Source of the DNA: Loktanella sp. M215
GTDB lineage: Bacteria > Pseudomonadota > Alphaproteobacteria > Rhodobacterales > Rhodobacteraceae
Direction of reading: 5' to 3'
DNA: 64,000 nt
Assembly: GCF_021735925.1 (NCBI RefSeq)
Contig: NZ_WMEA01000001.1
Coordinates: 409,501 to 473,500, forward strand
Part shown: piece by piece, positions 25,303-50,045 of the stretch
Numbering within the stretch: the stretch's first letter is position 1
Layout: each line of letters starts with the position of its first letter
Notes under the pieces: generated by a model
The model's input: the letters and a program-made list of their open reading frames with translations, nothing else
Database searches by the model: none
What the model was told of the DNA's origin: nothing
Translations under genes and position numbers: made by a program

Positions 25303-27348
25303 TCAGGCGGTGATCAGGCCCATCGATTCCAGCTTGAGGATCACCTGATGGGCGCAGTTGTCGACCTCGGTCGCCTCTGTCTCCAGCCGCATTTCGGGGC
25401 TTTCCGGCACGTCGTAGGGGTCAGAAATCCCGGTGAATTCCTTGATCTTGCCTTCACGCGCCAGCTTGTAAAGACCCTTGCGGTCCCGGCGTTCGCATTC
25501 CGCGATCGAGGTGGCGACGTGGATTTCGATGAAGGCACCGAACTGTTCGACATCCTCGCGCACCGCACGGCGGGTCGTGGCATAGGGGGCGATGGGCGCA
25601 CAGATCGCGATACCGCCGTTCTTGGTGATCTCGGACGCGACATAGCCGATGCGGCGGATGTTCAGGTCGCGGTGTTCCTTGCTGAAGCCCAGTTCAGACG
25701 ACAGGTTCTTGCGCACGATGTCACCATCCAGCAGCGTCACCGGGCGACCGCCCATTTCCATCAGCTTGACCATCAGCGCGTTGGCAATCGTCGACTTGCC
25801 GGAACCGGAGAAGCCGGTGAAGAACACGGTGAAGCCCTGCTTGTTGCGCGCGGGCCGCGTGCGACGCAATTCGGAGACGACCTGCGGGAAAGAGAACCAC
25901 TCGGGGATTTCCAGACCTTCGGCCAGACGGCGACGCAGTTCGGTGCCCGAGATGTCAAGCACGGTGCCGCCCTCGGGGACTTCATCCGCGGGGAAATACT
26001 GCGCTTTTTCCTGCACATAGACCATGTGCTTGAAATCGACCATCTCAACGCCGATTTCGTCCTGGTATTTTTTGAACAGATCCTGCGCATCGTAGGGGCC
26101 GTAGAAGTCCTTGCCGGCAGAGTTCTTGCCGGGGCCCGCGTGGTCGCGGCCCACGATGAAGTGGGTGCAGCCGTGGTTGGCGCGGATCAGGCCATGCCAG
26201 ACCGCCTCGCGCGGGCCAGCCATGCGCATGGCGAGGTTCAGCAGCGACATCGAGGTGGTGGAGGCGGGATACTGGTCCAGCACGGCTTCGTAGCAGCGCA
26301 CGCGGGTGAAGTGATCGACGTCGCCGGGCTTGGTCATGCCGACGACCGGGTGGATCAGCAGGTTGGCCTGCGCCTCGCGGGCGGCCCGGAACGTCAGTTC
26401 CTGATGCGCGCGGTGCAGCGGGTTGCGGGTCTGGAAGGCCACGACCTTGCGCCAGCCCAGCTTGCGGAACAGCGCGCGGAGTTCGTTCGGCGTGTCGCGG
26501 CGCGAGCGGAAGTCATAGTGGACGGGCTGCTGGATGCCGGTCACCGGGCCACCCAGATAGACGGCACCAGCGGTGTTGTGCAGGTAATTGACGGCCGGGT
26601 GGGCCGAATCGTCAGCGCCGAAGACCTTTTCGGCCTCCAGCTGCTTGTTCGGCACCCATTTGTCGGTGACCGTCATGGTGGCAAGGATCACGCCTTCCTG
26701 ATCGCGCAAGGCGATGTCGGTGCCGACCTCGACCGTCTCGGCGAACTTTTCGGACACATCAAGGGTGATCGGCATCGGCCAGAGCTTGCCGTCGGACAGG
26801 CGCATGTCGGACACGACGGAATCGTAGTCGGCCTCTGGCAGGAACCCCTTCAGCGGGTAGAAGCCGCCGTTCATCAGCAATTCAAGATCGCAGATCTGGC
26901 GTGACGTCAGATCGTGGCTGACCAGATCGCCGGCCTCGGCCTTCAGCCGCTGCGCGCTGTCTGGCGAAACGTACAGTTCTGGGATCGGCGAAAGGTTGTT
27001 CTGCATGGTCGAAATCCTGTTCAGGGTGAAGGCATAGCCGCTGGCCTGTCCGGTCAGCTCGGCGTGGAGGGCGTCATATTCGGCGAACTTGCGCGCCAGG
27101 AACCTGTCGGTCAGGCGGGCCTTCAGCGCCGCGCCCTTGTGGGTCAGGCCGTAGGCCACACGGCTGCGCCGGTCGGCACCGGATTGCTCACCCAGGCTGA
27201 CGTGACCGTCGGCGATGGCCTGCTTGATCTGCGCGTTCAGCCGCCCCAGCGACACGCCCACCGCCGCCGCCGTCTCGCGCTGGCTGGCAAAGGGCGCCAG
27301 ATCGAGCTGCCGCAGAAGGCGGAACAGGCCCTCCTCGGCATCGGTCAT
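25303..27348 (-). CDS. winged-helix domain fused to sulfate adenylyltransferase/APS kinase
   Basis: A 681-residue open frame from ATG 27348. Residues 1-100 resemble the EPS-associated MarR regulator family (TIGR04176): FRLLRQLDLAPFASQRETAAAVGVSLGRLN parts and YGLTHKGAALKARLTDRFLARKFAEYDAL parts. From MQNNLSPIPEL at residue 115 a complete PAPS synthetase follows: ATP sulfurylase with FQTRNPLHRAHQ and GRDHAGPG, then APS kinase with P-loop FTGFSGSGKST, DGD and LSSELGFSKEHR. It makes APS and then PAPS for sulfation or sulfate assimilation. An AGGA site precedes the internal ATG at 27006, so the enzyme part might also be translated alone. No in-frame stop separates the domains, whereas related enzymes normally begin at the MQNN position. 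Fusion versus readthrough of two genes is not proved. Confidence 0.85.
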   Translation of the reverse strand: MTDAEEGLFRLLRQLDLAPFASQRETAAAVGVSLGRLNAQIKQAIADGHVSLGEQSGADRRSRVAYGLTHKGAALKARLTDRFLARKFAEYDALHAELTGQASGYAFTLNRISTMQNNLSPIPELYVSPDSAQRLKAEAGDLVSHDLTSRQICDLELLMNGGFYPLKGFLPEADYDSVVSDMRLSDGKLWPMPITLDVSEKFAETVEVGTDIALRDQEGVILATMTVTDKWVPNKQLEAEKVFGADDSAHPAVNYLHNTAGAVYLGGPVTGIQQPVHYDFRSRRDTPNELRALFRKLGWRKVVAFQTRNPLHRAHQELTFRAAREAQANLLIHPVVGMTKPGDVDHFTRVRCYEAVLDQYPASTTSMSLLNLAMRMAGPREAVWHGLIRANHGCTHFIVGRDHAGPGKNSAGKDFYGPYDAQDLFKKYQDEIGVEMVDFKHMVYVQEKAQYFPADEVPEGGTVLDISGTELRRRLAEGLEIPEWFSFPQVVSELRRTRPARNKQGFTVFFTGFSGSGKSTIANALMVKLMEMGGRPVTLLDGDIVRKNLSSELGFSKEHRDLNIRRIGYVASEITKNGGIAICAPIAPYATTRRAVREDVEQFGAFIEIHVATSIAECERRDRKGLYKLAREGKIKEFTGISDPYDVPESPEMRLETEATEVDNCAHQVILKLESMGLITA

Positions 27349-27392
27349 AAGAACGGGTTTCAGGACAGTCACAGTGCGGCGATTCGATATAT

Positions 27393-27406
27393 GTTCATGC
27401 TTGAAC
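27393..27406. promoter_or_regulatory. palindromic operator candidate 1
   Basis: GTTCATGCTTGAAC: perfect GTTCA/TGAAC arms with a 4-base centre, about 45 bases upstream of the fused winged-helix/PAPS-synthetase start. Confidence 0.5.
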
Positions 27407-27427
27407 GCTCTTTGCCTCAAAAAGTCT

Positions 27428-27441
27428 GTTCATGAAAGAAC
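27428..27441. promoter_or_regulatory. palindromic operator candidate 2
   Basis: GTTCATGAAAGAAC: GTTC/GAAC arms, sharing GTTCATG and GAAC with candidate 1, with 35 bases between the centres of the two sites. Confidence 0.5.
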
Positions 27442-27489: not shown

Positions 27490-27942
27490 TCAGACGGAAG
27501 CGGACCAGGCCTGCGCCGGGCCGGCGTCGCGGATTGCGGCAGGGTCGAACAGCACGAGATGAACGAGATCCGGGCGAGAGCGGGAGCGGTACAACAGGCC
27601 CTGCGCGCCCCGGTCGCGGGCCATGTCCGACAGCGCCCATGTGGGCGACGGCGCGCCGCTGGCGCGGATGTCCTGCCAGACGATGGAGGGCGCAAGTCCC
27701 GCCTCACGCAGATCGACCACCCGCTTCGCCGCGATGGTCAGCGGCACGAGCATGCGCGGGGGGCCGTCGGCCCTCAGGTAGGCCCTGATCGCGATGCCAC
27801 AGCCCTCGGGCGTCAGCGAGGTGTAGATGGCGGGCTGGCCGTCGTGGTGGAACCGCCCTTCCGGAGAGGGGACGGGCCAGGTGGCGCGGTCGACGGCGGC
27901 GGCGTCGATCAGACGCCACGCCGTGCCGCGCCATGCGATCAC
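27490..27942 (-). CDS. RES-domain protein (toxin/NAD+ phosphorylase fold)
   Basis: A 150-residue protein read from a GTG at 27942 that overlaps the trxB stop as GTGA. The RES fold is suggested by [40 protein letters not shown], and [11 protein letters not shown] toxins hydrolyse or phosphorolyse NAD+ using Arg, Tyr and Glu residues; here the Arg and Tyr (IYTS) are kept, but the Glu that normally lies 11 positions after that Tyr is replaced by Ala. No Xre/DUF2384-type antitoxin gene adjoins. It may therefore be a non-toxic relative, or act in the thioredoxin context given coupling to trxB. Confidence 0.72.
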
Positions 27943-48030: not shown

Positions 48031-48933
48031 CTAGCGGATGCGGTCCGGTACGACCCGGCGGCGCAGGGCCAGTTGCTGTTCGCGGAACAGGGTGAAGATG
48101 CCCGTCGCCACCACGATTCCCGCACCGATCAGCGTCAGGGTCGATGGAAACTCCTTGAACACGATCATGCCCAGCACCAAGGCCGTCAGCAGGCTGGCAT
48201 AGCGGAACGGCGCGACAAATCCGATCTCGCCCACGCGCATGGCGGCGACCGAGAAGATGTAGCCAAAGACGACAAAGACCGTCGCCCCGCCCAGGCGGAA
48301 CACCTCTTGCCCCGACATGGGCTGCCAATCGACCCAGATCGACGCGACGCCCGAAAACACCGTGATCCCGACAGCGGCCGAAAGTGAAACCATCAGCGAC
48401 GGCACCGACCGCGACAGTTTGCGCACGACAAGGTCGCGCAGGGTCACGCAGGCCACCGCCGCAAGGGCATAAAGCGAGAAGATGTTGAAATCCGCACCGC
48501 CGGGCCTGACGATCAGCATGACACCGCCAAAGCCCACCATGATCGCGACCAGCCGCCGCCACCCCAGCGGTTCATTCATGAACAGCGCGCCGGCCAGCGC
48601 CACGCTCAGCGGCAGGACCTGCAGGATCGCACTGACGTTGGCGATGGGCATGTGGAACAGCGCAGTGATGAAGAAATACGCGCCACCGATTTCACCCAGC
48701 GTGCGCAGGCCGATATAGACCCAGTCCCGCACCGACAGATCGAACCGCAACTGTCCCATCGCGCGGGCCATCACGGCCAGACAGATCATCACGCCGATCC
48801 CGCGCAGAAACAGCAGCTGCGACAGCGGCAGGACGTCGGACAGCGTCTTGGTGAATGTATCGTTGACCGTGAAGGTCATCATTGCTGCCGCCATCAGGGC
48901 CGCGCCGCGCATGTTATCGGATAAGGGTGCCAT
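48031..48933 (-). CDS. EamA/DMT-family transporter
   Basis: A 300-residue membrane protein of two EamA repeats with ten hydrophobic segments, e.g. GAALMAAAMMTFTVNDTFTK with the SQLLFLRGIGVMIC second segment, and the VLPLSVALAGALFMNEPLGW segment in repeat 1. Such transporters export metabolites or amino acids; substrate cannot be told. I use ATG 48933 (MAPLSDNM), since the first 52 codons upstream are not membrane-like. It is inserted between rpoC and rpsL on the same strand, divergent from the CDF gene. Confidence 0.88.
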   Translation of the reverse strand: MAPLSDNMRGAALMAAAMMTFTVNDTFTKTLSDVLPLSQLLFLRGIGVMICLAVMARAMGQLRFDLSVRDWVYIGLRTLGEIGGAYFFITALFHMPIANVSAILQVLPLSVALAGALFMNEPLGWRRLVAIMVGFGGVMLIVRPGGADFNIFSLYALAAVACVTLRDLVVRKLSRSVPSLMVSLSAAVGITVFSGVASIWVDWQPMSGQEVFRLGGATVFVVFGYIFSVAAMRVGEIGFVAPFRYASLLTALVLGMIVFKEFPSTLTLIGAGIVVATGIFTLFREQQLALRRRVVPDRIR

Positions 48934-49070
48934 GGATTGAGGCGTATCAGCGCCCCCTGCCCCACGCCAGAGGGTCTGAACACGCCCCCTCGTTTTTACG
49001 CAGGTCGCATGCTGCGGGAACCCACGATCACCGCTTTGCGTCATACCACTGAACAATGGTGGAGCACCGC

Positions 49071-50045
49071 ATGGCCGATACAGCATCACACGACGACGGC
49101 GGCAAGGCGGCCGTCTATGCCGCCCTTTTCGCCAACCTCGGCATCGCCGTGACCAAGTTCATCGCCGCCGCCTTTTCGGGATCCTCGGCGATGCTGGCCG
49201 AAGGGATCCATTCGACCGTCGATACCGCCAACGAAGGGTTCCTGCTGCTCGGCATGTCGCGCGGCAAGAAGCCCGCGGATGCGCAGCACCCCTTCGGCTA
49301 CGCCGGAGAGGTGTTCTTCTGGTCGTTCATCGTGGCCGTCCTGATCTTTGCCCTCGGCGCGGGCCTGTCGATATATGAAGGCGTGCGCGCCATCCTGCAC
49401 GGCGGGCACGAGGCAGACGGCGTGCCATGGATCCCCTTCGCCGTGCTGGGGGTGTCGTTCTGCTTCGAAGGCTATTCCCTGTCGGTCGCGATCCGCGAAT
49501 TCATGAAGCTGCGCGCCGGGCGCGGACTGATCCGCGATCTGCGCGACATGAAGGACCCCGCCATCTTCGTCGTCCTGGCCGAAGACAGCGCCGCCTGTCT
49601 GGGTCTGATCATCGCCGCCATCGGCGTCGGGCTGTCATGGTATCTGGCGAACCCGCTGTTCGACGCGGGCGCCTCGATCGTGATCGGCGTGGTGCTCGGC
49701 ATCACGGCCGTCACCCTCGCGATCGAGGTCAAGGGCCTGCTGATCGGGGAATCCGCCGCCCCCGAGATGACCGACCGCATCCACGAAATGGTCAGGTCGA
49801 TCCCAGAGATCAAGCACATCAACGAAATCCGCAGCCTGCACCTTGGGCCGCATCAGGTGCTGCTGACACTCAGCATCGACTTTGCGGACGATGTGCTGTC
49901 GCAGCGGATCGAGGCGATCGTCACCGACCTTGACCACGACATCAGGGAAACCTTCGCCATCGTGAACTCCGTCTTTCTGGAGGTCCAGTCCCGCGACGGC
50001 CACCGCAGGATCATCGCGGAAACGCCGGACATCGTCAGCGCCTGA
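49071..50045 (+). CDS. CDF-family cation exporter, ZnT9-like branch
   Basis: A 324-residue exporter. The TM2 region has HSTVDTANEG (His47 and Asp51), the next loop HPFGYAGEVFFWSF (73-86), and LAEDSAACLG in TM5; the His/Asp pair differs from the DxxxD of FieF, placing it in another CDF subfamily than the gene at 8090. About six membrane segments and a C-terminal domain with SLHLGPHQVLLTLSI. Start 49071 has GGAG 7 bases upstream. It lies convergent to rpoC. Confidence 0.88.
   Translation: MADTASHDDGGKAAVYAALFANLGIAVTKFIAAAFSGSSAMLAEGIHSTVDTANEGFLLLGMSRGKKPADAQHPFGYAGEVFFWSFIVAVLIFALGAGLSIYEGVRAILHGGHEADGVPWIPFAVLGVSFCFEGYSLSVAIREFMKLRAGRGLIRDLRDMKDPAIFVVLAEDSAACLGLIIAAIGVGLSWYLANPLFDAGASIVIGVVLGITAVTLAIEVKGLLIGESAAPEMTDRIHEMVRSIPEIKHINEIRSLHLGPHQVLLTLSIDFADDVLSQRIEAIVTDLDHDIRETFAIVNSVFLEVQSRDGHRRIIAETPDIVSA

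Follow-up and report, generated by a model that had tools for sequence, protein, structure and literature searches.

A Putative Autoregulating PAPS Synthetase with a Fused MarR-Type Winged Helix in Loktanella sp. M215

Why should an enzyme of sulfate activation carry a DNA-binding domain at its N-terminus? The question is raised by one gene in a 64,000-nucleotide stretch of the genome of Loktanella sp. M215 (contig NZ_WMEA01000001.1, positions 409,501 to 473,500; hereafter the window), where a minus-strand frame encodes a MarR-type winged helix joined to a bifunctional ATP sulfurylase/adenosine 5′-phosphosulfate (APS) kinase, that is, a 3′-phosphoadenosine 5′-phosphosulfate (PAPS) synthetase. 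We think it probable that this gene encodes an autoregulating PAPS synthetase, a putative trigger enzyme made both as a long form that would bind DNA and as a short form that would be enzyme only. Comparison with related sequences establishes the fusion itself, the tie between the winged helix and a palindrome just upstream, and selection on a start codon inside the frame.

Fusion of a winged helix to a complete PAPS synthetase

The frame runs uninterrupted from a TTG at 27420 to the stop at 25303. An initial annotation, made from the letters of the window, had read it as an in-frame fusion, while allowing that a sequencing frameshift or a missed stop at the junction might have created it. Relatives from many species confirm the fusion. 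A scan of named genomes turned up 332 stretches that encode relatives of the winged helix, and the best 80 of these form our named set, in which Salipiger bermudensis HTCC2601 and Leisingera daeponensis are represented; the contig of one (L161) ends before the enzyme part, and in all 79 assessable loci the winged helix lies in frame with the enzyme and no stop intervenes. Among the 80 genes used in counts at the junction (the window's and 79 named ones, one of them, L153, shifted by one codon to correct an alignment offset), the linker from the sequence AELT to the internal start codon has the same length, 15 residues, in 78, the other two not being parsed. The whole-protein homologues listed, at least 120 of them, are every one 683 to 703 amino acids long, and their names mention the enzyme only, never a DNA-binding domain. 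A frameshift, a missed stop or a misassembly joining two genes is rejected on the strength of the open frame and the constant linker; no point speaks in its favor, and we put its likelihood at close to nil.

The N-terminal part matches HTH_24 with 24.3 bits, over the cut-off of 21.9. Against TIGR04176 (MarR_EPS), the family to which the initial annotation had likened it and which is indeed the closest, it scores 75.2 bits as a domain alone, 70.6 in the whole protein and 74.5 in a genome scan. Since the curated cut-off of 88 bits is not reached, we claim no membership in MarR_EPS and call the domain MarR_EPS-like. Its neighbors are not polysaccharide genes either; the surroundings consist of a RES-domain gene and a pyridine-nucleotide oxidoreductase of the trxB type. 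Like the TIGR04176 regulators it has a winged helix with a long C-terminal helix, but it is fused to an enzyme, adjoins trxB and differs, by eye, in the sequence of its recognition helix. Modeled alone, the domain reaches a mean predicted local distance difference test score (pLDDT) of 86 with MarR proteins as its best structural matches, and it is predicted to have the MarR-like topology of that superfamily.

The enzyme part scores 1032.4 bits against NF004040 (bifunctional sulfate adenylyltransferase/adenylylsulfate kinase; cut-off 669), and the PUA-like, ATP-sulfurylase and APS-kinase domains are all found by Pfam, so that by domain content it is complete, as first annotated. QTRNPLHRAH and GFSGSGKST, which we take to be motifs of the two catalytic activities, both occur in it. 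Its nearest solved structures are those of Aquifex aeolicus (2gks) and Penicillium (1m8p); in the solved bifunctional sulfurylase/kinase chains matched, the best stretch begins at residue 129 or later, and none has a winged helix. The 20 Pfam families matched by the protein (sulfurylase, APS kinase, PUA, HTH_24 and weak P-loop-type matches) include no biotin ligase family. In the full-length AlphaFold model the enzyme half is weak (predicted template modeling score, pTM, 0.47) and the linker is of low confidence, and because of this weakness we claim no contacts between the domains. The features of the gene are collected in Table 1.

Table 1. Positions of the features of the fused gene and its upstream region in the window
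Feature	Positions	Strand	Basis
Likeliest long product: winged helix and PAPS synthetase, 689 amino acids, GTG start 27372	25303..27372	-	Relatives' starts after palindrome
MarR-type winged-helix domain with long C-terminal helix, about residues 10-108	27049..27345	-	TIGR04176, HTH_24, predicted structure
Linker, low pLDDT	27007..27048	-	AlphaFold model and linker length in relatives
Putative internal Shine-Dalgarno AGGA, including Arg119 codon AGG	27015..27018	-	Codon conservation, window and 79 named genes
Putative short product: PAPS synthetase alone, 567 amino acids, ATG start 27006	25303..27006	-	Family match, start-codon conservation
PUA-like domain of ATP sulfurylase	26530..26985	-	PF14306
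ATP sulfurylase domain	25861..26502	-	PF01747
APS kinase domain, P-loop GFSGSGKST	25384..25839	-	PF01583 and sequence
Proximal palindrome GTTCA-N4-TGAAC, putative operator, 20 nucleotides 5′ of GTG start	27393..27406	.	Sequence and relatives
Distal palindrome GTTC-N6-GAAC, second putative operator	27428..27441	.	Sequence and relatives

Of 2013 candidates for a match to the first 120 residues, 673 pass. A scan of the window's family found a match in 138 of 149 genomes, among them 23 full-length fused loci and one contig-edge fragment with the winged helix; in the other genomes the best match listed starts further along the protein, usually within the linker or the enzyme. This set overlaps the named set in some genomes (L121/L005, L112/L011 and L143/L006). 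For comparison, 41 unfused loci were hand-picked from the enzyme-length matches, the duplicates L035 (= L027) and L036 (= L028) being dropped. A profile search for a divergent winged helix hidden in these loci found one in none of the 41, not even where the match begins as early as residue 68 (L069), and recovered it in both of two fused controls; unfused homologues are common, and the condition under which the initial annotation would have given up its reading, two halves always encoded by separate genes, does not hold. Across the class, the winged-helix profile matched 90 of 385 genomes, with a frame of fused length in two only, both from the window's family, and frames of 80 to 357 amino acids in the remainder. 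Judged by the winged helix, Loktanella atrilutea comes closest among the named relatives (91% over the best segment, within the best 80 of the 332 stretches). The fusion is patchy in its family and absent even from one species of the window's genus.

Two minor observations concern the domain at large. Frames from many other families of the class (L083-L104 and others), generally about 200 to 260 amino acids long, match the DNA-binding part of the winged-helix profile at about 45 to 63 bits and represent a widespread protein with a related domain. TIGR04176 has one further match in the window's genome, a weak one of 25.5 bits within a frame of 400 amino acids (L003, G000:C1:1040011-1040235).

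Palindromes upstream of the fused gene

The proximal palindrome reads GTTCATGCTTGAAC on the plus strand and the distal one GTTCATGAAAGAAC, 35 bases away, as the initial annotation had noticed; GTTC-N6-GAAC describes both better than the form it proposed, and GTTCA-N4-TGAAC describes the proximal one. Over the aligned sites of relatives the consensus is GTTCA-N4-TGAACA-N-A. Two sites within 130 nucleotides of the reference start occur in 24 of the 80 genes, most often at a spacing of 32 base pairs (11 of the 24). The likeliest first start is a GTG that follows the proximal palindrome, with ATG 27348 as the alternative. We place it there because 75 of the 80 genes have an in-frame start codon 14 to 26 nucleotides 3′ of the palindrome; the rule applied, the in-frame start nearest 19 nucleotides after it, failed for one gene (returning AGC), and the placement is a judgement.

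When the 500 nucleotides before the enzyme start of fused genes and the 750 before that of unfused genes are searched, GTTC-N6-GAAC is found in 23 of 23 fused loci of the family scan as against 1 of 41 unfused loci (L059, an off-consensus site). It also lies upstream of all 79 assessable named fused genes. The comparison was then made along a tree built by maximum likelihood from the enzyme parts of 23 fused and 41 unfused sequences. On this tree the fusion label needs 14 changes (12 to 16 over bootstrap trees), and well-supported branches force at least 8 of these. With shuffled labels the mean is 19.0 changes, 6 of 500 shuffles being as low as the observed value. In eight independent pairs that differ in fusion across well-supported branches, the palindrome agrees with the fusion in all eight in nearly all of 200 random pairings, the few others giving seven agreements and one tie (sign test, median p 0.0078, range 0.0078-0.0156). 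It appears, then, that gains and losses of the palindrome went along with those of the winged helix, the pattern predicted for a protein that binds its own promoter. Promoter binding and control by the fused protein, which the initial annotation had proposed, remain putative and gain comparative support from this co-occurrence through independent gains and losses.

Sister to the window, with support 100/100, is an unfused species of the same genus (G006, L024). It retains trxB upstream (83% DNA identity over 1130 bases), with about 240 base pairs between the trxB match and the enzyme, and has neither the RES-domain gene nor the palindromes nor the winged helix. A trxB gene lies within 3 kilobases upstream in 76 of 80 fused and, with less flank covered, in 25 of 41 unfused loci, and since it precedes the enzyme in both, the fused and unfused genes largely appear to occupy the same locus. 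Winged-helix and enzyme distances are correlated (Mantel r 0.34; highest of 999 permutations, 0.23), which fits shared descent of the two parts. One old fusion with repeated loss is the history that we favor, transfer being the alternative. The RES-domain gene itself (27490-27942, minus strand; PF08808, 67.9 bits), which stands between trxB and the enzyme gene, has relatives at 8 of the 80 fused loci and at 1 of the 41 unfused ones.

The window's genome carries the strict core GTTCANNNNTGAAC in two places, at the enzyme promoter and at position 48570. The latter was considered as a second target and rejected, as it lies inside a coding frame (48031-49089) which, from reading its sequence, resembles an EamA-type transporter. 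A 15-base core, GTTCANNNNTGAACA, is present at the enzyme promoter in 17 of 18 fused genomes, G081 having GTTCG there; extra matches are scattered through the fused genomes and 5 of 6 unfused ones. Inspection of four extra-match loci (L187, L190, L195 and L198) suggested no shared second target, the one 15-mer common to L187 and L198 being read as probable coding sequence. It is the place of a match, not the count, that we consider informative.

A logo of 80 aligned sites also displays a conserved CTTT 29 to 26 nucleotides before the palindrome and a TTTGAGTCG-like stretch after it (27378-27435 in the window), possible candidates for promoter and ribosome-binding elements. A promoter overlapping the operator was sought by eye in the same logo, and none is claimed.

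The internal start and its Shine-Dalgarno codon

The internal ATG and the AGGA ahead of it, which the initial annotation had offered as a second start, have drawn considerable support from comparison. The codon at the junction is a start codon in all 80 genes (ATG in 71, GTG in 8 and TTG in 1) even though the residue differs, and AGG begins exactly 12 nucleotides upstream of it in all 80. Arg119, the residue that this AGG encodes, is the only all-AGG column among 43 conserved arginine columns, whereas the other arginine codons of these genes are AGG in 40 of 4135 cases (about 1%). Measured against the genes' own usage, its codon bias is 5.13 bits; the mean over 477 conserved degenerate columns is 0.22 (standard deviation 0.31) and the next highest value 1.63. 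In the overlapping family-scan set, the start codon is kept in 23 of 23 fused loci and AGG in 22. Of the 41 unfused genes, by contrast, 2 carry AGGA in front of the aligned start of the enzyme. Judged by this codon pattern, selection on the internal start and its Shine-Dalgarno codon is clear, and the strength of the case lies in conservation rather than in pairing energy.

Autoregulation and its alternatives

We propose the following scheme. Translation from the first start would give the long protein with its N-terminal winged helix, which would dimerize through its long C-terminal helix, through the enzyme, or both; the dimer would bind one or both palindromes just upstream and would most likely repress its own gene. 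The conserved internal start would yield the enzyme free of the DNA-binding domain, and the state of the enzyme (substrate or product bound), together with the ratio of long to short form, would set the expression of sulfate activation. Operator binding, repression and the presence of two proteins in the cell we infer; that APS, PAPS or sulfate is sensed we conjecture. A further step, for which we judge the chances to fall somewhat short of even, would make this a one-gene homeostat, a PAPS synthetase that senses its own substrate or product and in which mixed oligomers of repressor-enzyme and plain enzyme tune repression. One trait of a trigger enzyme, a DNA-binding domain carried by a metabolic enzyme, is seen in the sequence and in the structural model.

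Several observations weigh against this proposal. No effector pocket came to light. Matches to the core in the window's genome number 2 per strand and those to a backwards control 3 per strand, a count not above chance. The direction of regulation is putative, repression being what the position of the palindrome fits. One fused locus (L019) has CGG in place of AGG; pairing of the internal site with the tail of 16S rRNA is moderate (median -4.0 kcal/mol), and 25% of 1212 other in-frame ATGs pair equally well. The fusion is, moreover, often absent and is therefore not needed for sulfate assimilation.

Some of these points lend themselves to other explanations. If the long form alone were made, the AGGA and ATG would be the leftover start of an older, separate enzyme gene, an account that draws on the many unfused homologues starting at or near the aligned position and on the unexceptional pairing energy. 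We consider it unlikely: a leftover start would not explain the retention of AGG in every one of the 80 genes, the motif is mostly missing from the unfused genes and so was not simply inherited, and where valine or leucine replaces methionine at the junction, the codon is always a start codon, GTG or TTG. It is also conceivable, and in our estimation quite improbable, that the winged helix regulates other genes, such as those for polysaccharide, while another regulator binds the upstream palindrome. The translations of genes adjoining four standalone relatives (L072, L073, L080 and L081) read as polysaccharide-type, a link presumably reflected in the name MarR_EPS. Against this, the palindrome comes and goes with the winged helix, the strict core falls outside a coding frame at one place only in the window's genome, and the 15-base core marks the enzyme promoter in nearly all the fused genomes with no shared target elsewhere suggested by the four loci inspected.

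A harder case to judge is that of a fused domain that autoregulates and senses nothing, plain negative feedback holding the amount of enzyme constant; this strikes us as possible and, on balance, rather doubtful. The lack of a visible effector site, the low-confidence linker and the absence of any predicted interdomain contact all agree with it, but a model so poor in its enzyme half gives no basis for judging contacts, and a published account describes trigger enzymes as acting on DNA when their substrate is lacking (PMC8249747).

Known systems offer partial likenesses. Like BirA, the fused PAPS synthetase has an N-terminal DNA-binding domain on a metabolic enzyme, and we take that of BirA to be a winged helix as well; unlike BirA, it is a different enzyme with no biotin protein ligase domain, and we know of no conserved internal start in BirA. 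BirA is described as a repressor whose DNA-binding domain some lineages lack; its main targets are other biotin genes, and autoregulation is confined to Desulfovibrionales (PMC5343134). With PutA and NadR of Escherichia coli the synthetase shares the combination of enzyme and DNA-binding domain, in other pathways. Their folds differ from its own, and to our knowledge no enzyme of sulfate activation regulates itself. Both are described as trigger enzymes with an acquired DNA-binding domain, PutA having a single target, and none of the five E. coli trigger enzymes listed there activates sulfate (PMC8249747). In principle, the proposed trigger enzyme would work as BirA and PutA do. AerR resembles it in having long and short forms from an internal start, putative here, and differs in that the synthetase is an enzyme, its isoforms differ by a whole DNA-binding domain and its start is not CTG. 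Rhodobacter capsulatus, the source of AerR, belongs to the same order as the window's organism. The AerR report describes a photoreceptor co-regulator with two functional isoforms, 41 residues different in length, the internal start being CTG and the two separated by silent changes in the ribosome-binding site (PMC6199135). Among the titles and abstract openings listed, which support absence from print weakly, we found no report of the fusion.

Enzymes that regulate their own genes are few. Here many marine bacteria of a single family have kept the fusion, the operator is compact, and unfused sister species, one within the same genus, provide a natural control set. A selected internal start would separate the dose of enzyme from that of repressor, and the evolution of a trigger enzyme by gain or loss of a domain with its operator becomes directly testable.

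As to what such control would govern, no CysD was seen in the window's genome (CysN was not searched), and for this reason the fused gene is probably its only route of sulfate activation. APS would then be the branch point between reduction and PAPS. The genome encodes one protein of the PAPS_reduct family (CysH-like, L215:1291-2241) with a CC and CxxC pattern, which we take to be that of the [4Fe-4S] APS reductase type, and this protein adjoins a frame resembling sulfite reductase.
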